34,444 nt of DNA from positions 1 through 34,444 of the forward strand of contig JAHCIP010000026.1 of NCBI GenBank assembly GCA_026129165.1. The letters run 5' to 3'. Below are positions 5,074-32,138 of this stretch, piece by piece. The number at the start of each line of letters is the position of its first letter. The first letter of the stretch is position 1. The translations under genes were made by a program, and so were the position numbers. The notes under the pieces are model-generated. The model saw only the letters and a list, made by a program, of their open reading frames with translations. It ran no database searches and was not told the origin of the DNA. The DNA is from Anaerolineae bacterium (GTDB lineage Bacteria; Chloroflexota; Anaerolineae; Epilineales; JAHCIE01).

Positions 5074-7932
5074 CTACCGTTCCAGCCAGCCCAAGACCTT
5101 GGCAATCTCGACCACGATGAGCACGCTGCTGGCGACGAGAACCGAGACCAGCCAGTCTACGGGGCGCATCGGCAGCGTTTCAAAGGCGGCCTGGAGGGCG
5201 GGAACGTAGATCACCAAGGCGTGCAACCCGACGGAGAGGGCGATGGCCCCCCACAGCCAGCGGTTGCCGAAGAAGCCGAGGCGGAAGATGCTCTGCCGGC
5301 CGCTGCGTGAGTTCAGCGCGTTGAAGCACTGGAACAGCATCAGCGTGGTAAAGGCGACGGTGCGCGCGAAGTCGGCGGTGTGGGCAGCGTCGGTGGGCGG
5401 CTGGAACAGGGTTAGCAATCCACCGGGGTAATAGGCTTCCAGGATCCCCAGCGTCCCGACCATCATAACGACGCCGACCAGGCCGATAAAGATCCACATG
5501 CGGCGCGGGATGACCGGCTCGTTGAGGGCGCGCGGCGGTTGCAGCATGATGTCCGGTGTGCGCGGGTCCACGCCCAGCGCCAGGGCCGGCGCCCCATCGG
5601 TAACGAGGTTGATCCACAGGATTTGGGCGGTCAAGATAGGCAGGAAAGCCACCCCGGCCGGGGAGATGAAACCCAGTCCACCGGCCAGCATGATGCCAAG
5701 AAACATGGTCAAGACTTCGCCCGCGTTGGAGCTAAGCAGGTAACGGATAAACTTGCGAATGTTGTCGAAGATAGCGCGGCCCTCGCCAATAGCGGCGACG
5801 ATGGTGGCGAAGTTGTCGTCGGTGAGCACCATATCGGCCGCCTCTTTGGCGACGTCCGTGCCGCGCAGGCCCATCGCCACGCCGATGTCGGCCCGCTTGA
5901 GGGCGGGCGCGTCGTTGACGCCATCGCCCGTCATGGCGACGATGTGCCCCTGGCGCTGGAGGGCTTCCACAATCCGCAGCTTGTGGGCCGGGTCCACGCG
6001 GGCATAGACGCTGACCTCACGCACCGCCTGGTCCAGCCCGGCGTCATCCAGCTTGTTCAGGTCGGCCCCGCTCAGCACCCGGTCGCCCGGCTGCGCCAGC
6101 CCAATGGCCCGCGCGATCGCCAGGGCCGTCGTCGCGTGGTCGCCGGTTATCATGATGGGACGAATGCCCGCCCGCTTCGCCTCGGCGACTGCCGTTGGGG
6201 CTTCCAGGCGCGGCGGGTCAATAATGCCCACCAGCCCCAGGAACACCAGCTCATGCTCGACCACCTGCGGCTCATAGTCCACGGAAGGGTCATTGGCCTC
6301 CAGTTCGCGGTAGGCCAGCCCCAGCGTGCGAAGCGCCTGCTCACCCAACTCCTCGTTGACCTGCCGAATACAGGCACGGTCGTCGGCGGTCAACTCGCGC
6401 ACGGTCCCCTGGTCACGCACCCAGCGACATGCGCGCAGCACCACATCCGGCGCGCCTTTGATATTCGCTACCAGCCCGTCATTGACCCGCCCCAGGTCGA
6501 GGTCAGCGACCAGCCCTGTGGCAGCCTGTCCGACCGCCAGGCTGTGAATGGTGGTCATCAGCTTGCGCTCAGAGGAGAAGGGGATCTCACCCACGCGCGG
6601 CTCTGCCTGCGCCAGCATCTCCTGCCGCAGCCCCGCTTTCATCGCCAGCACCAGCAGAGCGGCCTCCGTCGGGTCGCCATCGGCCCGCCACGCCCCATCC
6701 ACCGCGACAACCTCCGCATCATTACACAACGCGCCCACACTGAGCGTCCAGGCCAGGTCGGACGGGTGGGCAGGGATGTCGAGGGGGGTCAGGGCGCCTT
6801 CGGGGATATAGCCCTCGCCGCTGACGACATAGCGATGGCTCACCCCCACCAGCAGTTCGCGCACGGCCATCTCGTTGCGCGTCAGCGTCCCCGTCTTGTC
6901 GGTGCAGATAACCGTGGCCGAGCCGAGCGTCTCGACGGCGGGCAGCTTGCGCACAATGGCGCGGCGGTCGGCCATGCGCCGTACGCCAATCGCCAGGGCG
7001 ACAGTCACAATGGCGGGTAAGCCTTCGGGAATTGCTGCCACGGCCAGGGCCACGGCGAACAGGAACATGGCGAGCATCGCCTCGAAGGAGGTCGCGCCGC
7101 GCGCCACCACCCCCGTGACAAAGACAATCACGGAGATCACCAGGACCAGGATGCCGAGCTGACCGCCGACACGGGCCAACTCGCGCTGGAGGGGAGTGTC
7201 GCTGGGGTCGGCGCGCTGGATCAGGCCCGCGATAGCCCCCATCTCTGTCGCCATACCTGTCGCCGTGGCGAGGGCCAGCCCGCGGCCATACGTGGCCGCG
7301 CTGCCCGTATAGACCATGTTGACCCGGTCGCCCAGCGGATGTTCGCCCTCCAGGGCCGCGACGCTCTTGCTGACCGGCACGCTCTCGCCGGTGAGCGCGC
7401 TCTCGTCCACCTGGAGGTTCATCGCCTCTAACAGCCGCGCATCGGAGGGAACACGGTCGCCAGCTTCGAGAATCAGCAGATCGCCCGGCACGATCTGGTC
7501 GGCGGGTATCCGCTGCCGCTCGCCGCCCCGAACGACCTTCGCTTCGGGCGCGGTCAGGCGGCGCAGGGCACGCACGCTCTGCTCGGCGCGGTACTCCTGG
7601 ACCACACCCAGCACTGAGTTGAGAATCACAATCGCCAGGATGACCAGAGAGTCGTAAGGGAGGGGTTCCGCGCCTGGCTGGCCGCGTTCCAGGAACCAGA
7701 CACCGGCCGACACGAGGGTGGCGGCCACCAGGACAAGGACGAGCGGCTCCTTGAATTGGGCCAGGAAGATATCAAGGGGCGTCGGGGGCGGGGTGGCCTG
7801 GAGGGCGTTAGGGCCAAACTCGACCAGCCGTTCGTGGACCTGCTCGGCGTTCAGGCCGCGTTGCCGGTCACTATCGAGGGCGAGAACCACTTCCTCGGCG
7901 GCCAGTTGGTAGGGTGGAGGGGAGGAGAGCAT
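5074..7932 (-). CDS. Calcium-type P-type ATPase (P2A family)
   Basis: This 952-residue ATP-driven cation pump of the inner membrane most likely exports Ca2+. Visible landmarks are an N-terminal cation-ATPase domain, the actuator loop TGES (181-184), TM4 with PEGLP (302-306), the phosphorylated Asp in DKTGTLT (D345) and the hinge TGDGVNDAPALK. The TM5 SSNAGEV and TM6 NLVTDGAPALALG motifs carry the SERCA-like Ca ligands (Asn/Glu; Asn/Thr/Asp), which is why I favour P2A over P1B or H+ pumps. The start at 7932 replaces a longer frame running back into the dehydratase gene; AAAGG lies 8 bases upstream. It begins 10 bases after the threonine dehydratase stop, so the two form one operon. Mn2+ cannot be excluded. 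Confidence 0.93.
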   Translation of the reverse strand: MLSSPPPYQLAAEEVVLALDSDRQRGLNAEQVHERLVEFGPNALQATPPPTPLDIFLAQFKEPLVLVLVAATLVSAGVWFLERGQPGAEPLPYDSLVILAIVILNSVLGVVQEYRAEQSVRALRRLTAPEAKVVRGGERQRIPADQIVPGDLLILEAGDRVPSDARLLEAMNLQVDESALTGESVPVSKSVAALEGEHPLGDRVNMVYTGSAATYGRGLALATATGMATEMGAIAGLIQRADPSDTPLQRELARVGGQLGILVLVISVIVFVTGVVARGATSFEAMLAMFLFAVALAVAAIPEGLPAIVTVALAIGVRRMADRRAIVRKLPAVETLGSATVICTDKTGTLTRNEMAVRELLVGVSHRYVVSGEGYIPEGALTPLDIPAHPSDLAWTLSVGALCNDAEVVAVDGAWRADGDPTEAALLVLAMKAGLRQEMLAQAEPRVGEIPFSSERKLMTTIHSLAVGQAATGLVADLDLGRVNDGLVANIKGAPDVVLRACRWVRDQGTVRELTADDRACIRQVNEELGEQALRTLGLAYRELEANDPSVDYEPQVVEHELVFLGLVGIIDPPRLEAPTAVAEAKRAGIRPIMITGDHATTALAIARAIGLAQPGDRVLSGADLNKLDDAGLDQAVREVSVYARVDPAHKLRIVEALQRQGHIVAMTGDGVNDAPALKRADIGVAMGLRGTDVAKEAADMVLTDDNFATIVAAIGEGRAIFDNIRKFIRYLLSSNAGEVLTMFLGIMLAGGLGFISPAGVAFLPILTAQILWINLVTDGAPALALGVDPRTPDIMLQPPRALNEPVIPRRMWIFIGLVGVVMMVGTLGILEAYYPGGLLTLFQPPTDAAHTADFARTVAFTTLMLFQCFNALNSRSGRQSIFRLGFFGNRWLWGAIALSVGLHALVIYVPALQAAFETLPMRPVDWLVSVLVASSVLIVVEIAKVLGWLER

Positions 7933-18669: not shown

Positions 18670-18714
18670 CCTAAGTTAGCCTAAAGTTCAGATTTGGAGG
18701 AATTTAACGTCATG

Positions 18715-18785
18715 CTGCGGCGTTCAGGCCGCAGTCCCCACTGAAGGGCGTTTTCGTTAGCGGAACTGTGGCATGAATGCCCCAG
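18715..18785. repeat. Inverted pair of GTTYAG-loop hairpins
   Basis: Hairpin 18715-18734 has stem CTGCGGC/GCCGCAG and loop GTTCAG. Hairpin 18766-18785 has stem CTGTGGC/GCCCCAG (one mismatch) and loop ATGAAT, a drifted CTGAAC. The second is in opposite orientation. The first hairpin and following bases are nearly identical to 23914-23940. Confidence 0.7.
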
Positions 18786-18878
18786 CTTGGGCGGAGACGT
18801 CTTGGGCGGCCACGTATGGGCCAAAATTGAAGCGCTCTTCCCCCTCTGCCTATATCTTCCCTTCTTACCAGTGCAGAC

Positions 18879-18908
18879 TTGTCTATCCAGGCCAATCTGT
18901 GCTATTCT
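18879..18908 (+). promoter_or_regulatory. Promoter ahead of the cobalamin riboswitch
   Basis: TTGTCT at 18879-18884 and TATTCT at 18903-18908 are 18 bases apart. The RNA would start about 30 bases before the riboswitch core. Confidence 0.5.
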
Positions 18909-18940
18909 TACGTCTACAACTGAACACGGCCACCCACGGT

Positions 18941-19056
18941 GACCACAAGCCCGGATGCTGAGGCATAATGGGGGAAGTCGGTGCGAGTCCGACGCTGTCC
19001 CGCAACTGTAAGGCCCGGTGAACCCGCCGCGCCAAGCCAGGATACCCGCCGTGGTC
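18941..19056 (+). promoter_or_regulatory. Cobalamin (adenosylcobalamin) riboswitch
   Basis: The B12 box AGCCAGGATACCCGCC at 19035-19050 matches the family consensus closely. Upstream are the GTCGGTGCGAGTCCGAC hairpin (18977-18993) and the CTGTCCCGCAACTGTAA core (18995-19011). GACCAC at 18941-18946 can pair with GTGGTC at 19051-19056 to close the P1 stem. A small hairpin GGGCG/CGCCC at 19059-19075 may contribute the kissing-loop partner. By family knowledge, bound cobalamin turns expression off; here the likely output is the terminator at 19181. The ends are approximate. Confidence 0.93.
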
Positions 19057-19180
19057 GAGGGCGTTACATGCGCCCTTGTTGCATCCCACCTTCGTGAGAA
19101 AGGCGGGGAAGCCCACGCCAGGCGCGGGAGTCCCCGGTCTGGCCGTGGACCGGCGCCCCCCTAACGGCGTGCTCTGACCC

Positions 19181-19210
19181 CGCGTCCCAAATGGGACGCG
19201 CTTGTTTTTT
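19181..19210 (+). terminator. Riboswitch-controlled intrinsic terminator
   Basis: CGCGTCCC (19181-19188) and GGGACGCG (19193-19200) form a perfect 8-bp stem, followed by CTTGTTTTTT. The U-tract runs directly into the AAGGAGG ribosome site (19211-19217), so the same structure could also affect translation. Confidence 0.88.
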
Positions 19211-19222
19211 AAGGAGGACCGT

Positions 19223-20551
19223 GTGCGCCGTCGTCGTCTGTTCTTGCCAGTCGTTGTGCTGCTCGTCCTCGTTGGGGCTGGCCTGGCCGCCGTCCAGTGG
19301 ACCCAGGCTCGCGCCCGCCTCCTCGTTCAATTCCCTGATGGCCGCGTCGAAACCCGCAACATTACCTTCCGCAATACTATGAGTGGCCTGGAGATGCTCC
19401 AGCGGTCGGGCCTCACCGTTGTCACGTCAAAGACCGACTTCGGGACGGCCGTGTGTAGTATCGAGGGGGTCGGCTGCCCCGCCACCAACTGTTTCTGTGA
19501 CAAAGCCAACTTCTGGGGCTACTATCACTGGACCGCCCAGGGCTGGGCCATGGCCGACGTGGGCGCGGACCAGGCGACCGTGACCAATGGCGGCCTGGAT
19601 GGCTGGCGCTGGGGCGACGGGCCGCCCACTGTCAACGGCGGCGCCAACCGGCCCACCACCCCGGCTGGCTCGGCCGCCACCGCCCTGAACTGGCTGCGCG
19701 CCCGCCAGCAGGCCGACGGCAGCTTCGCCAGCGAAACGTTTCGCGTCGGGCTGACCCTCGACGTCGTCCTGGCCGCCTCGGCGGCGGGTGAGGATGTGGG
19801 CGCGTGGCGCACGGAGGGCGGGCGGACCGTGCTCGACTTCCTGGCCGCCGGGGGCGCGGCCTACCTGGACCAGGGCGGCGCCCGCGAGGCGGGCAAGCTG
19901 CTAGCCGGCGTGGTCGCGGCGGGCGGCCAACCCCACGCCTTCGGGGGCCGCAACCTCGTCCAGGCCGTCCAGGCGACGTACCACGCCGGCCGCTTCGGCC
20001 AGAGCCACTGGGACCAGGCATGGGCCATACTCGGTTTGGCGGCGGCGGGCGAAGTCATTCCAGACGAGGCCGTCCAGACCTTACTGGCGGCCCCCACGCC
20101 CGAAGGCGGGTGGGCGTTCGCCCCTGGGATGGGCGAGGCCGATGTGGACACGACGGGGCTGGCGCTGCAGGCCCTGGCCGCCGCCAGCGCGCCTCACGAC
20201 CACCCTAGCCTTCAGAACGCCCGTCTCTTTCTGAGCCGCCAGCAAAACGACGACGGGGGCTTCCCAGCTCACCGGGCGACGCAGACGGCGTCGCGTGCTG
20301 GCTCGGCGGCCTCCCCGTCCAACGCTCCCTCGACGGCCCTGGCGGTGATGGGCCTGCTGGCAATCGGTACGGACCCGCTGGCCCCAGGCTGGCAGAAGGG
20401 TGGGCGCACACCGCTGGATGCCCTGCTTGCCCTACAAGGGCCGGACGGCGGGCTGCGCGGCGCGGCGGGGCCAAACGATGTCCAGGCCACAGCGCAAGCC
20501 TTGCCCGCCCTGCTTGGCAAGGTGTACCCCCTACGAGGGCCGCGTGACTGA
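19223..20551 (+). CDS. Cobalamin-binding surface protein: DUF4430 plus alpha/alpha toroid
   Basis: A 442-residue envelope protein, probably a vitamin B12 binder feeding the ECF importer downstream. RRRR then FLPVVVLLVLVGAGLAAV (residues 2-24) is a signal or membrane anchor. Residues ~33-130 form a DUF4430 (transcobalamin C-terminal-like) domain with C78, C85, C90, C92 and the aromatic GYYHW. Residues ~145-437 are an alpha/alpha toroid of prenyltransferase/squalene-cyclase-type repeats (RARQQADGSF, SRQQNDDGGF, ALQGPDGGL). Intrinsic factor and transcobalamin contain the same two folds in the opposite order. The GTG at 19223 is the start: AAGGAGG ends 5 bases upstream, while an upstream TTG would fall inside the terminator. 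The riboswitch control supports the substrate. Confidence 0.82.
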   Translation: MRRRRLFLPVVVLLVLVGAGLAAVQWTQARARLLVQFPDGRVETRNITFRNTMSGLEMLQRSGLTVVTSKTDFGTAVCSIEGVGCPATNCFCDKANFWGYYHWTAQGWAMADVGADQATVTNGGLDGWRWGDGPPTVNGGANRPTTPAGSAATALNWLRARQQADGSFASETFRVGLTLDVVLAASAAGEDVGAWRTEGGRTVLDFLAAGGAAYLDQGGAREAGKLLAGVVAAGGQPHAFGGRNLVQAVQATYHAGRFGQSHWDQAWAILGLAAAGEVIPDEAVQTLLAAPTPEGGWAFAPGMGEADVDTTGLALQALAAASAPHDHPSLQNARLFLSRQQNDDGGFPAHRATQTASRAGSAASPSNAPSTALAVMGLLAIGTDPLAPGWQKGGRTPLDALLALQGPDGGLRGAAGPNDVQATAQALPALLGKVYPLRGPRD

Positions 20552-21167
20552 GACCGGGCGACGATGGACGGCTCTCGTCGGCCTGCTGTTCGTCTGGTTG
20601 AGCCTGGCCGCACCCGCCTGGTCGCAGGACAATCGCGTCGGGCTGGTCGTGCAGTTCGGCAACGGCGCTGTGTTCCGGGGCTGCTACCCCTACACCCAGG
20701 GAATGACCGGCGCGGAGTTGCTGCAGCAGGCGGGGCTGGATAGCGCCATCGAGTACAGCGCCCAGGGCGCATTCGTCTGCCGCATCGCCGCGGCGGGCGT
20801 GGGGCAGGACGGCTGCGACTACCCCCGCGCGGCGTGCCAGTGTCAGGCGCAGACCCTCCCCTGGCGCTACTGGGCCTACTGGCGTCTCGATGGGGCCGAG
20901 TGGGCCTATTCCGACCAGGGGGCGGCGGGGCATGTGCTCCAGCCGGGCAGTGTGGACGGCTGGGCCTGGGGTGACGGCGGCGTGACCTCTGGCGTGAAGC
21001 CGCCGCCCGTCACCCTACAGGAATTATGCACGGCAACCGTGCCGCTCACCGCTGCTAGCCCGCGGGCCGAGAGGCAAGGACTGCCCACGTACTACCTCCT
21101 CTTCGTGGGCATGGTGGCCGGTCTGGTCGGGCTGTGGTGGGTGGTCCGCCAGCGGAGCGCCCGATGA
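20544..21167 (+). CDS. Membrane-anchored DUF4430 protein
   Basis: A 207-residue paralogue of the preceding protein's first domain. It has a signal peptide (WTALVGLLFVWLSLAAPAWS), a DUF4430 domain (GLVVQFGNGAVFRGCYPYTQ to VDGWAWGDGG) and a C-terminal membrane helix (YLLFVGMVAGLVGLWWVV) with an RQRSAR stop-transfer end. A Cys-rich loop (VCRI then CDYPRAACQC) and WRYWAYW match the upstream protein at the same places, suggesting shared disulfides and ligand contacts. It starts at GTG 20544, overlapping the upstream stop by 8 bases, with GAGGG upstream. It may hold or hand over cobalamin at the membrane. Ligand binding is inferred from operon and fold. Confidence 0.75.
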   Translation: MTETGRRWTALVGLLFVWLSLAAPAWSQDNRVGLVVQFGNGAVFRGCYPYTQGMTGAELLQQAGLDSAIEYSAQGAFVCRIAAAGVGQDGCDYPRAACQCQAQTLPWRYWAYWRLDGAEWAYSDQGAAGHVLQPGSVDGWAWGDGGVTSGVKPPPVTLQELCTATVPLTAASPRAERQGLPTYYLLFVGMVAGLVGLWWVVRQRSAR

Positions 21168-22276
21168 CCCCCCTTCACCAACCACCCACCACTGACCCCC
21201 CACCACTATTACCGCGCCACCCGCTGGCCTGGCTGGCCTGGCTGGGGCTGGCCTTCGGGGCCACGCTCACCACGCGCAACCCCCTCTACCTGCTACTTAT
21301 CCTGCTCACCCTGCTGGTCGTGTACCAGGCGGCGGCCCGCCAGACGCAGACCGGCCCGGCCTGGGGCGCGTTTATCCGCCTGGGGCTGGTGTTCGGCCTC
21401 ATCGGCGTCGGCTTCGACACCCTGACCGGCCACCTGGGGGACACGGTCCTGTTCCGCCTGCCGGACGCCTGGCCCGTCATCGGCGGGCGTATCACCCTGG
21501 AAGCCGTCGCCCACGGCCTCATCGGCGTCGTCCAACTGGCCGGCCTGCTCGTCGCCGGCGCGGTCTTCAGCCAGACCCTCGACGCTGCCACCCTCCTGCG
21601 CTTTGTCCCGGCCGCGTTTTACCACGCGGGCCTGATTCTGACCATTGGCCTGGCCTTCATACCCCAGACGGTGCTGGGTTTTCAGGAGATCCGCGACGCG
21701 CAGCGCATGCGCGGCCACCAGTTCCGCGCCGCCCGCGACTTGCTGCCCCTCATCGGCCCGTTGCTCACCACCGGGCTGGAACGCGCCGTTCAGTTAGCCG
21801 AAAGTCTGGAAACGCGAGGATTGGGCTATCCAGGCGACGAAGCGCCGCCCATCCACCGGCCCTGGCTAGCCCAACTGGGCCTGCTGGTGGGCAGCCTGGG
21901 GGTGGGAGTGGGGTTGTTCGGCCTGGGCTACTGGGGGCGCGAGCCGTGGGCGGTAGTGATGAGCCTGGCCGGCGGGCTACTCCTCGTCTGGACGGTGCGC
22001 CGCCTGGTCCCCACGGGCCGCCGCACCTACTACCGACGACTGCGATTGAGTTGCTTTGACCGTATCGTCATCGGGCTGAGCCTCAGCGGATTGCTCGGCC
22101 TGAGTCTCCTGGTGGCCCTGCGCCCGGAGCTAGTGGCCTACACGCCTTTCCCCCGCCTCGCCGCGCCGCCCTTTGACCCCTGGCTCGGCAGCGCGTACCT
22201 GGTCCTGCTGGCTCCAGTAGCCTCCCTGGCTCTGCCCAGGCCGACGGCGGAACGAGACGCCCGTGATTCAGCTTGA
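21164..22276 (+). CDS. ecfT: ECF transporter T component (EcfT)
   Basis: A 370-residue integral membrane protein that couples the ATPase pair to the substrate-binding S component. It has the CbiQ/EcfT fold with several membrane segments and the two coupling-helix signatures DAQRMRGHQF and SLETRGLGYP (the paired A-R-G type motifs that dock on the ATPases). The start ATG overlaps the previous stop (ATGA). Its first ~16 residues (HQPPTTDPPPLL) are encoded by a heptamer array and are probably disordered. After the usual EcfT domain it carries extra membrane segments (~residues 240-365), so it is longer than a minimal EcfT (~260). Confidence 0.9.
   Translation: MTPLHQPPTTDPPPLLPRHPLAWLAWLGLAFGATLTTRNPLYLLLILLTLLVVYQAAARQTQTGPAWGAFIRLGLVFGLIGVGFDTLTGHLGDTVLFRLPDAWPVIGGRITLEAVAHGLIGVVQLAGLLVAGAVFSQTLDAATLLRFVPAAFYHAGLILTIGLAFIPQTVLGFQEIRDAQRMRGHQFRAARDLLPLIGPLLTTGLERAVQLAESLETRGLGYPGDEAPPIHRPWLAQLGLLVGSLGVGVGLFGLGYWGREPWAVVMSLAGGLLLVWTVRRLVPTGRRTYYRRLRLSCFDRIVIGLSLSGLLGLSLLVALRPELVAYTPFPRLAAPPFDPWLGSAYLVLLAPVASLALPRPTAERDARDSA
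21176..21210. repeat. Heptamer array inside the EcfT N-terminus
   Basis: Five period-7 units CACCAAC, CACCCAC, CACTGAC, CCCCCAC, CACTATT lie in the first codons of ecfT. Confidence 0.6.
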
Positions 22277-23900
22277 GCGAGTGACGTATCGCTACCCCGA
22301 CCAGACGACGCCCGCGCTGCGTGACGCCAGCCTCAGCCTGCCACCCGGCAGCTTCACCCTGGTCGTGGGCGCGTCGGGCGGGGGCAAGTCCACCCTGCTG
22401 CGTACCCTCAACGGCCTGGTCCCCCATTTCTACGGCGGCGTCTTCCGCGGGCGCGTCCGCATGGGCGATGCCGACCCCGTCGCCCTGACGCCGCGCCGCA
22501 TGGGCCGCCATGTGGGCCTGGTATTCCAGGACCCCGAAGCCCAGTTTGTCGTGTCTACCGTGGAGGATGAACTGGCCTTTGGCATGGAAAATTTCGGCGT
22601 ACCCCTGCCGGTCATGCGCCAGCGCATCGAGACCGTGCTGGGCCGGCTCGGCATCGGCCACCTGCGCGGCCGGCGGATCGAGACGCTGTCGGGCGGAGAA
22701 AAGCAGCGCGTCGCCATAGCGGCCGTACTGACCCTTCAGCCAAGCGTCCTCGTTCTGGACGAGCCGACGTCCCAGTTGGACCCCCAAGGTGCAGCGGATG
22801 TGCTGGCCGCTATTGACGAGCTACACCGCGCGGCGGGCCTGACCGTCATGCTAGCCGAGCACCGTGTCGAGCGCGTCGTCGAACGCGCCACCCACGTCCT
22901 GACCATCGAAGAGGGTCATCCCACGGTCGGCGACGCCCGCGCCCAACTGGCCCACCACCCCCTGGCCCCGCCTGTCACCCGCCTCGGCGCGGCGCTCGGC
23001 TGGACGCCGGTCCCACTGACAGTGGCAGGGGCGGAAAGACTAAAGATTGATGACGAAAGATTCCAGATAAGGGGCGGAGGACGGAAGACGGAGGACGGAA
23101 CTCCTAGATCTTCAGTCATCACTCATCAGTCTTTCGGCCCTCCCGTCCTCACCCTCGCCGGCGTCCACGCCCGCTATGGCGAACGGGCGGCGTTACGCGG
23201 GGTAGACCTGGCGGTGCGGCAGGGCGAGGTCGTGGCGCTGATGGGAAGAAACGGCGCCGGCAAGACAACGCTGCTCAAGGTGGCGATGGGGCTGCTCGCG
23301 ACGACGGCGGGGCGCGTCAGCCGGCTGGGCCAGGCGGTACGCGGTGGGGAGACGGCGACCCTGGCGCGGCGCGTGGGCTATGTGCCGCAGAACCCGAGCG
23401 CGCTGCTGTTCGCGGACACGGTGCGCGACGAAGTCCTGTTTACCCGCCGAATCCACCGCTTACCCGGACTGGGCGAGAGCCTGATGATACTGGGGCTAGA
23501 GGGGTTGGCTGATGCCTACCCACGTGACCTGAGCGTGGGCCAGCGGCAGCGCGTCGCCCTGGCCGCCGTCCTGGCTGCTGAGCCGGCCTTGCTCCTGCTG
23601 GACGAGCCGACGCGCGGCCTGGACACCCTCCAGAAAGCCGACCTGGCCGCCCTGTTGCGCCGCCTGACCCGTGAGGGGGCGGCCATCCTGTTGACGACGC
23701 ACGATGTCGAACTGGCGGCGATGGCTGCCGACCGAATCATCGTGCTGGACGAGGGGCGGGTCGTCCACGACGGTCCGACGGCGGCGGTCATGCGCGCCGC
23801 GCCGGCCTTCGCCAACCAGATCGCCCACCTCTGGCCGGACAGCGGTTGGCTCACCGTGGACGATGTCCTGGCGGGACACAGGGCTTACAGAGTAGCATGA
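22263..23900 (+). CDS. Fused ECF transporter ATPase (EcfA-EcfA')
   Basis: A 545-residue double ABC ATPase. Domain 1 (~1-250) has Walker A GASGGGKS (36-43), Q-loop VFQDPEAQF, signature LSGGEKQR (142-149), Walker B VLVLDEPTS and H-loop AEHRVE. Domain 2 (~294-530) has Walker A GRNGAGKT, Q-loop VPQNPSALL, signature LSVGQRQR (Val for the first Gly), Walker B LLLLDEPTRGLD and TTHDVE. Both sites look competent. The GTG start overlaps ecfT by 14 bases. Residues ~257-291 of the linker are encoded by a 102-bp block of heptamer repeats that looks inserted. With EcfT and the S component it forms an importer; shared use by other S proteins cannot be excluded. Confidence 0.93.
   Translation: MIQLERVTYRYPDQTTPALRDASLSLPPGSFTLVVGASGGGKSTLLRTLNGLVPHFYGGVFRGRVRMGDADPVALTPRRMGRHVGLVFQDPEAQFVVSTVEDELAFGMENFGVPLPVMRQRIETVLGRLGIGHLRGRRIETLSGGEKQRVAIAAVLTLQPSVLVLDEPTSQLDPQGAADVLAAIDELHRAAGLTVMLAEHRVERVVERATHVLTIEEGHPTVGDARAQLAHHPLAPPVTRLGAALGWTPVPLTVAGAERLKIDDERFQIRGGGRKTEDGTPRSSVITHQSFGPPVLTLAGVHARYGERAALRGVDLAVRQGEVVALMGRNGAGKTTLLKVAMGLLATTAGRVSRLGQAVRGGETATLARRVGYVPQNPSALLFADTVRDEVLFTRRIHRLPGLGESLMILGLEGLADAYPRDLSVGQRQRVALAAVLAAEPALLLLDEPTRGLDTLQKADLAALLRRLTREGAAILLTTHDVELAAMAADRIIVLDEGRVVHDGPTAAVMRAAPAFANQIAHLWPDSGWLTVDDVLAGHRAYRVA
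23034..23135. repeat. 102-bp heptamer-repeat block in the EcfA-A' linker
   Basis: The ends GAAAGACT (23034-23041) and AGTCTTTC (23128-23135) are perfect inverted repeats. Inside lie AAAGATT twice in period 7 (23042, 23056), GGGCGGA, GGACGGA, AGACGGA, GGACGGA (23072-23099) and CAGTCAT, CACTCAT, CAGTCTT (23113-23133). The length is an exact multiple of three and keeps the frame. Confidence 0.65.
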
Positions 23901-23913
23901 TATATCGGTTACG

Positions 23914-23984
23914 CTGCGGCGTTTAGGCCGCAGTCTCCATCAGAGATGATTTCGCCTGTGGGGCCTGGGGCCTGAACGCCCCAG
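23914..23984. repeat. Inverted pair of GTTYAG-loop hairpins inside the ECF operon
   Basis: Hairpin 23914-23933 has stem CTGCGGC/GCCGCAG and loop GTTTAG. Hairpin 23965-23984 has stem CTGGGGC/GCCCCAG and loop CTGAAC. They fill most of the gap between the ATPase gene and the S-component gene and could stabilise the upstream mRNA or lower downstream expression. Confidence 0.78.
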
Positions 23985-24046
23985 CCTGCTTATGGAAGAC
24001 CTCCTGATTAGTGAACACGGTTAGGATGGAGGCAGAGGGATTGCCA

Positions 24047-24862
24047 ATGCGGAAGCTGGTCGCCGGTTTGCGTTACTTGAGCCTGGCGGTGGGCGCGCTC
24101 GGCGGCCTGGCCGCCTTCCTCTACCCGTTCTTCCTGCCCACGGCTCACGTGAGCGCGCAGGACGCCGCGCACGCCGGCGACGCCCCGCTGGCCTTCTTCG
24201 CCCTCCTTGGCCTGACCTTGATGACGACCCTGGCCGCCGTCGAAACCCGAGGCCACGATGCCAAGACGATTGCCGTCCTGGGCGTCCTCATCGCGACCAA
24301 CGCCACGCTGCGCATCGTGCCCGCCCCGGCCGGCGCGTCGGGCATGTTCTTCCTGCCCATCCTGTGCGGCTATGTATTCGGCGCCGAGTTCGGCTTTCTG
24401 CTGGGGACGTTGAGCATGGCGCTGTCCGCGCTGGCGACGGGCGGCATTGGACCGTGGCTGCCCTACCAGATGTGGACGCTGGGCTGGGTCGGCCTGACGG
24501 CGGGCTGGCTGCCCCGCCTGCCCCGGCGCCCCCGCGTGGAAGCCGCCCTCCTGGCCCTGTTTGGCGCCATCTGGGGCCTTCTATTCGGCGCGATGATGAA
24601 CCTGTGGTTCTGGCCGTTTGTGGCCGGCGACCCGGCTCAGTCGTGGCAGGCCGGGCTGGGCGTCGGAGATGCGATCCATCGGTATGCCCTTTTTTATGTC
24701 GCCACGTCGTTCTGGTGGGACATCGTTGGCGCGGCGGCTAACTTTGTCGTCCTGGTTCTGTTCGCCGCCCCACTGCTGAGGGTATTGCGACGCTTCCAGC
24801 GGCGCTTTACGGTCGACCTGCATGTGGAGGTTGAGCGAACAGGGCAGGTGGGTGTAGAATAA
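24047..24862 (+). CDS. ECF transporter S component, probable cobalamin specificity (CbrT-like)
   Basis: A 271-residue polytopic membrane protein with about six membrane segments (LSLAVGALGGLAAFLYPFF; AFFALLGLTLMTTLAAV; IAVLGVLIATNATLRIV; the AEFGFLLGTLSMALSAL helix; the LLALFGAIWGLLFGAMM helix; FVVLVLFAAPLLRVL). The order and the PYQMWTLGWVGLTAGWLP motif fit the QueT/CbrT branch of S components, which capture a vitamin and dock on EcfT. Operon position downstream of a cobalamin riboswitch and B12-binding-type proteins argues for cobalamin. GAGGGA lies 7 bases before the ATG at 24047; a GTG at 24011 is a weaker alternative. It is separated from the ATPase gene by a hairpin pair, so it may have its own expression level. 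Confidence 0.8.
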   Translation: MRKLVAGLRYLSLAVGALGGLAAFLYPFFLPTAHVSAQDAAHAGDAPLAFFALLGLTLMTTLAAVETRGHDAKTIAVLGVLIATNATLRIVPAPAGASGMFFLPILCGYVFGAEFGFLLGTLSMALSALATGGIGPWLPYQMWTLGWVGLTAGWLPRLPRRPRVEAALLALFGAIWGLLFGAMMNLWFWPFVAGDPAQSWQAGLGVGDAIHRYALFYVATSFWWDIVGAAANFVVLVLFAAPLLRVLRRFQRRFTVDLHVEVERTGQVGVE

Positions 24863-29520: not shown

Positions 29521-31590
29521 TCAGACTCGCACTCGTCGCGTCAACAGCCCGAAGAGCAGCAGGGCCAACCCCAGCCCGACGACCCAGACGAACCAGCCGC
29601 CCGCGTCGCCGGTGGGTGGCAAGGCCGGCGGGGTGGGGGTCAGGTTAAGCAGACGGGCTGTCGCGGCGACAGTGGTGGCATAGGTAGGCGTCAGCGTGGC
29701 GACAAGTGTCAGAGGAACGGCGGCTGTTTGCGTCGCGGCTGCGAGAGCCGTTGGGTTGAGGGTTGGCGTGAGCGCGATGGTGGGCGTCGCGGGCGAGGGC
29801 GTAGGGATGGCGGCGGTGCCTGTCGTGGCCGGCGTGGCCTGAGCAGCGGGGGCCGGGGCCGACCCTCGGGTCAGCGTGATGCGCCCCTCGACCTTCGGAT
29901 TCACCGTCCCTTGGGCGCGCAGATAGTTCGCCACGGCCTCGGCCAACAGGATGTCGGTCTGTTTGATAGCCGCGCCTCGGGTAAACGCCTCATAGCCATC
30001 CCCACCGTTGATCATGAAGTCGTTGGTCGCCACGCGGTAGACCGCATTGGGGTCCAACGGCTTGAAGCCGGCCTGGGTAGTGCCGATGTCCACCTGAAGC
30101 ACGCGCTGGCCAATGGGCCGGGTCACGTCCGCCGTAAAACGGACGCCGCTGACCTGGGCGAAGCGGCCGCCACTCGCGCCCGGATTGCTCAGGTCCAATC
30201 CGCTGACCCCGTTCTCCAACGCCTTCACCAGGTCCGCGCCCTTGAGGTCAGCCGTGTAAATCGTATTGCCAAAGGGCAGGACGGTCAGGACATCACCATA
30301 GGTAACCTGGCCCGCTTTAAGCGAGACGCGGATGCCGCCGCCGTTCATCATGGCGACCTGGGTCTTATCCGGCGCGGTCACATCGAGCATGGCGTCGGCA
30401 ATCAAGTTGCCCAGCGCGGCCTCGCTGGCCCGCACATCCACTCGCTCGCCTGGTAGGTCGCTCGCTACCGTCCCCAACACCTCCTTGCGGACCTCGTCCA
30501 CCGCTGTTGATAGCCCCTTGTAGAGCGCGGCCACTGACGGCTCTTCCGCGATCTTGTCATCCACCAGCAGATTGTCCCCCTTCCAGGCCGTGGGAACGCC
30601 TTGCCCGTTAAAGGTGACGTCGAGCCGCCCCAGGAAGCCGCCCCATTTCCAGTCGTTGACAATCAAGACCGGCGCGCCGTTCGGGCTTTTGACCACCGAC
30701 GGGTTAGGCCCGGCCGGCCGGGGCGCGTAGCTGGGTAGGCTGGCCGCATCGGCCAGCAGTGTCTCGTCGTGCCCGCCAACAATCACATCCACCCCATTCA
30801 CGGCTTCAGCCAGCCCCACGTCGTCAAAGGGCAAGCCCGAACGGCGGCTGCTGTAGCCCATGTGGCTGAGAACGACGATCTTGTTCACCCCCTGCGCTTC
30901 GAGGGCTTTGACCGACGTGCGCACGGCCTCCACCGGATCGGTGCTGAAGACACGCCAGGCGGGTGAGACTGACGTGCCGAGGTGCTCATGCATCACGCCA
31001 ATCAGCCCGATCTTCTGGCCGCCGACGTCACGCACCACATAGGGCTGGACCTTGCCATTCAGACCCGGTTCGACAGAGTAGTCGGTATTGGAAGCCAGAA
31101 TGCTGAATTTCGCGCCGGTCACGAAGTTGTCCAGCAGCGTCTTCGCCCCAAAGTCGAACTCGTGGTTGCCTAGCGCCACAGCGTCGTAGCCGACGGCATT
31201 GTAGAGGTCACGTCCCTCCTGGCCTTTATACTTGGTGAACAGGAGCGCGCGCTGCGATATATCGCCCGAGTCGACGAGCAGCAGGTTGGGAGTCTGGGCG
31301 CGCAGTTGCTTGACCAGGGTGGCGCGGCGGGCGATGCCGCCAATCAGCGGCCCGTTGGCGACCGGCGCCCACGGTTCCCACGCGCCGTGGTTCTCGCTGG
31401 TGTGCAGGAGGGTCAGCGTGTAGTCGCCCGTCTGCGCGACAGCCCTAGGTGCGCAGAGCAGGCAGACCATGAGGAGCACAGCGGCGAGGAATGAGGCGTA
31501 TTGCGTAGTGCGTGGTCCGTATTTCGTCTTTCCCACTTTATCCTCCATCCTCCGTCCTGTGTCTTCCGTCTTCCGTCCTCCATCCTCCAT
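29521..31590 (-). CDS. Cell-wall-anchored 5'-nucleotidase / 2',3'-cyclic phosphodiesterase family protein
   Basis: A 689-residue surface phosphoesterase of the UshA/YfkN type. A signal peptide (SFLAAVLLMVCLLCAPRAVA, ~33-52) precedes the metallophosphatase domain: LLHTSENHG (Glu where Asp is usual), DSGDIS, GNHEFDFG, LSHMGY, GGHDE. The C-terminal 5'-nucleotidase domain has NGGGIR and TNDFMINGGDGYEAF for the base. A Pro/Thr/Ala-rich stalk (~560-650) leads to LPPTG, a hydrophobic helix and RRVRV, a sortase-type anchor. It would release phosphate and nucleosides outside the cell. The first ~30 residues are encoded by heptamer repeats, so the true start is uncertain; 31548 (ATG) and a GTG at 31536 are alternatives. 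Confidence 0.88.
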   Translation of the reverse strand: MEDGGRKTEDTGRRMEDKVGKTKYGPRTTQYASFLAAVLLMVCLLCAPRAVAQTGDYTLTLLHTSENHGAWEPWAPVANGPLIGGIARRATLVKQLRAQTPNLLLVDSGDISQRALLFTKYKGQEGRDLYNAVGYDAVALGNHEFDFGAKTLLDNFVTGAKFSILASNTDYSVEPGLNGKVQPYVVRDVGGQKIGLIGVMHEHLGTSVSPAWRVFSTDPVEAVRTSVKALEAQGVNKIVVLSHMGYSSRRSGLPFDDVGLAEAVNGVDVIVGGHDETLLADAASLPSYAPRPAGPNPSVVKSPNGAPVLIVNDWKWGGFLGRLDVTFNGQGVPTAWKGDNLLVDDKIAEEPSVAALYKGLSTAVDEVRKEVLGTVASDLPGERVDVRASEAALGNLIADAMLDVTAPDKTQVAMMNGGGIRVSLKAGQVTYGDVLTVLPFGNTIYTADLKGADLVKALENGVSGLDLSNPGASGGRFAQVSGVRFTADVTRPIGQRVLQVDIGTTQAGFKPLDPNAVYRVATNDFMINGGDGYEAFTRGAAIKQTDILLAEAVANYLRAQGTVNPKVEGRITLTRGSAPAPAAQATPATTGTAAIPTPSPATPTIALTPTLNPTALAAATQTAAVPLTLVATLTPTYATTVAATARLLNLTPTPPALPPTGDAGGWFVWVVGLGLALLLFGLLTRRVRV

Positions 31591-32000: not shown

Positions 32001-32137
32001 CCGTGGCGTTCAGGCCACGGGGCGGTGGACCGCGCCCTAAACGGCGCGGCGTCGGGGCTTCTGCCGTGGCGTTCAGGCCACGGGTTCGCCCAGGCGAATC
32101 TATGCTCACGGCGTACACTGCGGCCTAAACGCCGCAG
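32001..32137. repeat. Four GTTYAG-loop hairpins in alternating orientation
   Basis: 32001-32020: CCGTGGC-GTTCAG-GCCACGG. 32030-32049: CCGCGCC-CTAAAC-GGCGCGG (inverted). 32064-32083: CCGTGGC-GTTCAG-GCCACGG. 32118-32137: CTGCGGC-CTAAAC-GCCGCAG (inverted). All stems are perfect 7 bp with a constant 6-base loop. Confidence 0.85.
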
Positions 32138-32138
32138 C

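Follow-up and report, generated by a model that had tools for sequence, protein, structure and literature searches.

A probable vitamin B12 import locus with transcobalamin-like capture proteins in a Chloroflexota bacterium

INTRODUCTION

To our knowledge, energy-coupling factor (ECF) transporters function as a rule without soluble binding proteins. A kind of bacterial B12 scavenger that includes secreted proteins was nevertheless proposed by Burroughs et al. in 2007 (PMC1796856). The accessible part of that paper describes secreted SLBB proteins of the transcobalamin clade, often fused to a toroid on either side, with a second paralogous surface protein and CbiO-like and CbiQ-like genes encoded nearby, usually in hosts without B12 synthesis. 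The Streptomyces families SCO2321 and SCO2322 are named, not characterised, in NCBIfam, and our literature search found no paper on the function of SCO2321-SCO2325. In Herpetosiphon aurantiacus, a riboswitch-regulated B12 transporter has been reported (Sun et al. 2013, PMC3766115), whose genes are unnamed in the accessible part of the paper and which may or may not correspond to the locus studied here. Here we analyze positions 18879 to 24862 of a 34,444-nucleotide stretch of DNA from an Anaerolineae bacterium of the phylum Chloroflexota (contig JAHCIP010000026.1 of assembly GCA_026129165.1; the whole stretch is referred to as the window). We consider it likely that this locus encodes a B12-repressed cobamide importer, in which two proteins, P1 and P2, capture the cobamide and hand it over to an ECF module.

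RESULTS

The locus begins with a cobalamin riboswitch aptamer (RF00174) at positions 18920-19067 of the positive strand, which also carries the terminator and all five genes. In a covariance-model search (cmscan), the aptamer matched at full length with a score of 74.3 bits (E = 1e-16) against a gathering threshold of 31.5 bits; model positions 1-189 were all covered, the B12 box included. This was the sole cobalamin riboswitch match in the 6.5-Mb draft genome. Approximately 110 nt 3' of the aptamer lies an intrinsic terminator (19181-19210; ΔG of -16 kcal/mol, z of -4.6), composed of an 8-bp GC stem and a T-tract (stem at 19181-19200, then CTTGTTTTTT). The terminator ends immediately 5' of the P1 ribosome-binding site and is likely the expression platform of the riboswitch. 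Plentiful B12 would turn the operon off, whereas at low B12 the aptamer would be empty and the terminator before P1 would presumably stay unformed.

The first gene (19223-20551) encodes P1, a putative B12 capture protein with an N-terminal signal or anchor. It starts at a GTG preceded by an AGGAGG ribosome-binding site and comprises a beta domain of the SCO2322-type SLBB kind (19304-19654, profile match of 2.0e-40) and, in its C-terminal half, an alpha/alpha toroid (19667-20548), which matched SQHop_cyclase_C in the family search (9.7e-11). P2 (20544-21167, GTG start) consists of a signal peptide, a second beta domain (20628-21008, profile E of 3.2e-41) and a C-terminal transmembrane anchor, the segment of which (21081-21164) was read directly from the sequence. 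The ECF genes encode EcfT of the CbiQ family, the transmembrane coupling subunit (21164-22276, ATG start; PF02361, 2e-8), a fused EcfA-EcfA' ATPase with two ABC_tran domains (22263-23900, GTG start; TIGR04520, 1.3e-103) and an S component, the predicted B12-binding membrane subunit (about 24047-24862, ATG start; PF12822, 1.7e-9). Successive overlaps of 4-14 nt join P1, P2, EcfT and EcfA-A', and a 146-nt gap with a dispersed repeat inside it separates EcfA-A' from S. With the S component, EcfT and two EcfA ATPases encoded at one locus, the transporter is of ECF group I, which has a dedicated module. The riboswitch, the terminator and the five-gene layout were thus as given in a preliminary description made from the sequence.

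We collected related loci by genome searches and by related-locus searches. The linkage of riboswitch and ECF genes, which the preliminary description had proposed to check in relatives, turned out to be conserved: 26 of the 34 loci scanned contained a cobalamin-class riboswitch directly upstream, in every case 129-438 nt 5' of the first capture-gene domain and in the same orientation. Eight loci, in which the S gene stood apart from the capture genes, had no B12 riboswitch except for one (L128), and this single case makes no general rule for such loci. There, the riboswitch is followed by genes for a BtuR/CobO adenosyltransferase, EcfT, EcfA-A' and S, and the capture genes of the same genome reside on a separate contig (L043) with a riboswitch of their own. 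The L128 layout therefore links S to B12 in a way that does not depend on the capture genes.

A survey of 301 Chloroflexota genomes detected S-family members in 71 and beta-family members in 73; 67 genomes had both (67 of the 77 with either; phi of 0.91). The corresponding Fisher p of 1e-54 is not to be taken literally, since the surveyed genomes are related rather than independent; counted by genus (n = 179), the two families numbered 40 and 39. Within the 67 genomes, the two genes were at most 15 kb apart in 40, on different contigs in 20 and far apart on one contig in 7. Thus, the association is not a matter of operon inheritance alone. Among the four genomes with S only, two (G057 and G138) encoded canonical DUF4430 proteins together with transporter genes; in G057 (L118), the true DUF4430 protein lies exactly between the toroid protein and EcfT, which is the slot of the beta protein. 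In Tepidiformaceae, one open reading frame (ORF; L074, 9773-11500) predicts a protein in which a beta domain is followed by a linker, then by a transmembrane helix and finally by an S component. No other single observation hints as strongly at a physical hand-over.

These data bear on the alternative that the riboswitch and the ECF module serve B12 and that P1 and P2 have a structural or other surface role and do not bind it. For P1 and P2, homology is remote only, and the families are on different contigs or far apart in the 27 genomes mentioned above, as this alternative would allow. It is nonetheless improbable given the beta-S fusion, the strength of the co-occurrence, the fact that the capture genes are under riboswitches of their own and the DUF4430 protein that occupies the same operon slot. 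In six genomes (G087, G094, G198, G214, G223 and G230), the beta family was present and no S component of the present family was detected; their transporter partner may be divergent or of another kind.

The label "QueT/CbrT-like," given to the S component at the outset, could not be maintained. Only the generic ECF S family PF12822, which matched all 13 relatives of the S component, and an S-component fold were found. The AlphaFold2 (AF2) model of S (mean predicted local distance difference test score [pLDDT] of 83) resembled FolT, RibU, CbiM, ThiT and PanT in Foldseek, all of which are S-component folds. A profile search of PDB gave a weak FolT match only (E of 2.6-6.4), and a PDB search with the sequence itself gave no useful match. 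Elsewhere (L125, 9536-10585, negative strand), a BtuF-like Peripla_BP_2 protein is encoded immediately 5' of an S component of the same family, which a different capture protein may feed at that locus, to judge by gene order.

The host genome encodes MetH and yielded eight matches to B12-binding domains. CbiC and CobS were undetected in the draft (6.5 Mb in 598 contigs), as was a FecCD permease of the BtuC type, although the FecCD search was positive in 13 of 14 control genomes. From its gene content, the bacterium seems unable to make vitamin B12. This matters for a second alternative, in which the cargo of the locus is not a finished cobamide but cobalt or a precursor of B12 (cobinamide, for instance). 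Cobalt is also carried by ECF modules with CbiQ and CbiO, and in one related locus (L039) a toroid-beta pair is encoded beside EcfT and the late B12-assembly genes cobC and cobS, so some relatives could use cobinamide. In the present host, however, precursors could not be finished if the absence of CbiC and CobS is real. Moreover, the S component belongs to PF12822 and not to CbiM, to which 1 of 13 relatives had a weak match, and the literature gives complete cobamides as the ligand of transcobalamin-type domains. We therefore regard import of a precursor or of cobalt as quite unlikely.

The beta domains of P1 and P2 had initially been labeled DUF4430. By sequence, this label fails, since the Pfam model (PF14478) matched neither P1 nor P2 nor any of 19 related beta domains; as a statement of remote relationship, it holds. 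Compared with two genuine DUF4430 proteins, the beta profile gave an hhalign probability of 82 and an E of 1.1e-5, and all 300 control ORFs scored lower. The third DUF4430 sequence compared (L117) gave no match. NCBIfam SCO2322_fam matched 18 of the 19 related domains (best value, 3e-9), under its curated cutoff, and a profile of the beta family returned chance matches only when run against PDB. In the AF2 model of mature P1 (pLDDT of 91.9), DSSP assigned two strands, a helix, a two-strand insert and further strands. This is the beta-grasp pattern S1-S2-H-S3-S4-S5 with a strand insert after the helix, and it equals the arrangement in the row "SLBB: transcobalamin-type" of Table 1 in PMC1949818. 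The profile comparison and the model together indicate that the beta domain is a remote homolog of DUF4430 with a predicted transcobalamin-type topology.

For the toroid, the Foldseek matches of the P1 model included transcobalamin (4zrp_A, E of 1.4e-5). That the toroid protein might act as a secreted enzyme, either a terpene cyclase or one resembling prenyltransferases, as its squalene-hopene cyclase-like top Pfam and Foldseek matches could suggest, can be dismissed with near certainty, because the DxDD motif of class II terpene cyclases occurred in none of 62 toroid domains, which makes an enzymatic role unlikely, and because of the signal sequence, the fusion to a beta domain and the riboswitch context. 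The host genome contained a second ORF of this family with a double toroid (L050, 1-1656 of contig C177), at a contig end; its sequenced side showed neither a beta domain nor a transporter gene nor a riboswitch.

In most Chloroflexota relatives, the toroid and the beta domain were encoded by separate genes, and 46 of the 56 beta proteins tested carried a C-terminal transmembrane helix, like P2. The order beta-toroid was found in the window and in L064, L066, L067 and L069, and the transcobalamin order (toroid-toroid-beta) in L048 and L071. Two of these loci also contained a single ORF for S, EcfT, EcfA and EcfA' (L066, 10374-14462, 1,363 amino acids; L069, 11143-15450, 1,436 amino acids), apparently single-chain ECF importers as read from the ORFs. 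In Actinomycetota, the beta family was present in 31 of 199 genomes. Four actinomycetotal loci (L104-L107), from eight genomes above the curated cutoff, had the order toroid-beta-EcfT-EcfA-A'-S. In another (L110), a cobalamin riboswitch (6575-6768, negative strand) lies on the strand opposite to the beta and ECF genes and, because of this orientation, probably controls a divergent gene.

Two kinds of repeats were observed in and around the locus. A dispersed element resembling repetitive extragenic palindromic (REP) sequences, with the palindromic core GCTGCGGCGTTYAGGCCGCAG, had 18 matches in the draft genome. In the window, copies lie at 18710-18790, just 5' of the riboswitch, at 23913-23988, in the gap that separates EcfA-A' from S, and also at 32118-32138. 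The linker of EcfA-A' (23075-23135) contains a GGA-rich, repeat-like sequence, GGACGGAAGACGGAGGAC, translated in frame; the repeat apparently also occurs in the N terminus (MEDGGRKTEDTGRRMEDK) of a 5'-nucleotidase-like ORF on the negative strand (29521-31590).

DISCUSSION

The findings are best explained by a cobamide importer with its own capture proteins. P1, with its beta domain and toroid, and the membrane-anchored P2 would stand outside the cytoplasmic membrane, much like a split transcobalamin. Judging by the fold and by transcobalamin, a toroid and a beta domain would sandwich one cobamide, which P1 and P2 would pass to the S component; ATP hydrolysis by EcfT/EcfA-A' would then drive S to release B12 inside, as known from ECF biology. 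More generally, such an ECF importer would have dedicated extracellular binders, transcobalamin-like proteins that catch B12 and dock on S or are fused to it. We give this general proposition about even chances. If true, it would break the rule that ECF transporters do without soluble binders and would provide a bacterial equivalent of the B12 carrier found in animals.

Several observations weigh against an importer of this kind. The Streptomyces-like loci L104-L107 lacked a cobalamin riboswitch at the gathering threshold, and some genomes had the beta family without S and others S without the beta family. Neither sequence nor fold reveals the substrate specificity of the S component, and its top fold matches do not include CbrT. 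In the toroid, terpene cyclases outranked transcobalamin, and farnesyltransferase was matched as well. The order of domains in P1, beta-toroid, is the reverse of the toroid-beta order of transcobalamin. Foldseek of the P1 model was informative for the toroid only and not for the beta domain; the beta domain precedes the toroid and so cannot align in the transcobalamin order, and the toroid dominates the comparison. Finally, the draft genome is 91% complete, so the gene absences are suggestive and not proof.

Our results support the preliminary description in its proposal of a B12 importer under riboswitch control with two extracellular proteins of transcobalamin type, an arrangement that is conserved in relatives. 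Its suggestion of an undescribed system needs qualification: B12 scavengers were proposed in the accessible part of PMC1796856, so that the concept is not new, and the same families are named in NCBIfam. The locus is a variant of a predicted, experimentally unproven kind of B12 scavenger. What is new here is a divergent beta family that the DUF4430 model misses, riboswitch control as a consistent feature, an S component that is dedicated and strongly co-occurring, the beta-S fusion and the distribution in Chloroflexota and Actinomycetota; in the accessible part of PMC1796856, we did not find riboswitch control, a dedicated S component, a beta-S fusion or this distribution.

The locus offers a concrete route of B12 uptake for bacteria without BtuFCD, in which many importers remain unknown, and links the unexplained SCO2321 and SCO2322 families to B12. 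With its compact gene set and a ready beta-S fusion, it also opens the transcobalamin-like scavengers predicted for bacteria in 2007 to a direct test, and it bears on whether binding proteins can feed ECF transporters and on the origin of animal B12 carriers.

Compared with the clade of Burroughs et al., as far as the accessible part of PMC1796856 describes it, the locus shares a secreted beta-grasp domain with or without a toroid in either order, a paralogous surface protein, an operon with an ECF ATPase and T protein, and hosts that mostly do without B12 synthesis. That clade comes from low-GC Gram-positives, planctomycetes and euryarchaea, whereas the present locus is found in Chloroflexota and Actinomycetota, and the present beta domain, unlike theirs, is missed by the DUF4430 model. 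The Streptomyces SCO2321/SCO2322 families (NCBIfam NF053823 and NF040672) have the same gene set of toroid, beta, EcfT, EcfA-A' and S; unlike here, the fetched loci above the family cutoff have no cobalamin riboswitch at the gathering threshold. ECF-CbrT of Lactobacillus delbrueckii (PMC5997447) likewise consists of an S component, EcfT and two ATPases. CbrT is one of several S components that use a common ECF module, and its gene lies with nrdJ and pduO, whereas the locus here has a dedicated module and, in addition, extracellular binders; the present S component is assigned to the generic family PF12822. The BtuB/BtuFCD system has the same presumed cargo, but its FecCD/BtuC-type permease was undetected in the host genome, and in the family search P1 and P2 had no sequence match to BtuF-type binding proteins. 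The animal carriers transcobalamin, intrinsic factor and haptocorrin combine an alpha/alpha toroid with a transcobalamin-type beta domain, as is the case here, and transcobalamin is among the fold matches. They differ from P1 and P2 in that the domain order of P1 is reversed, the second copy is membrane anchored and binding is putative. The partner of the animal carriers is an endocytic receptor, whereas the partner here is an ABC-type importer.

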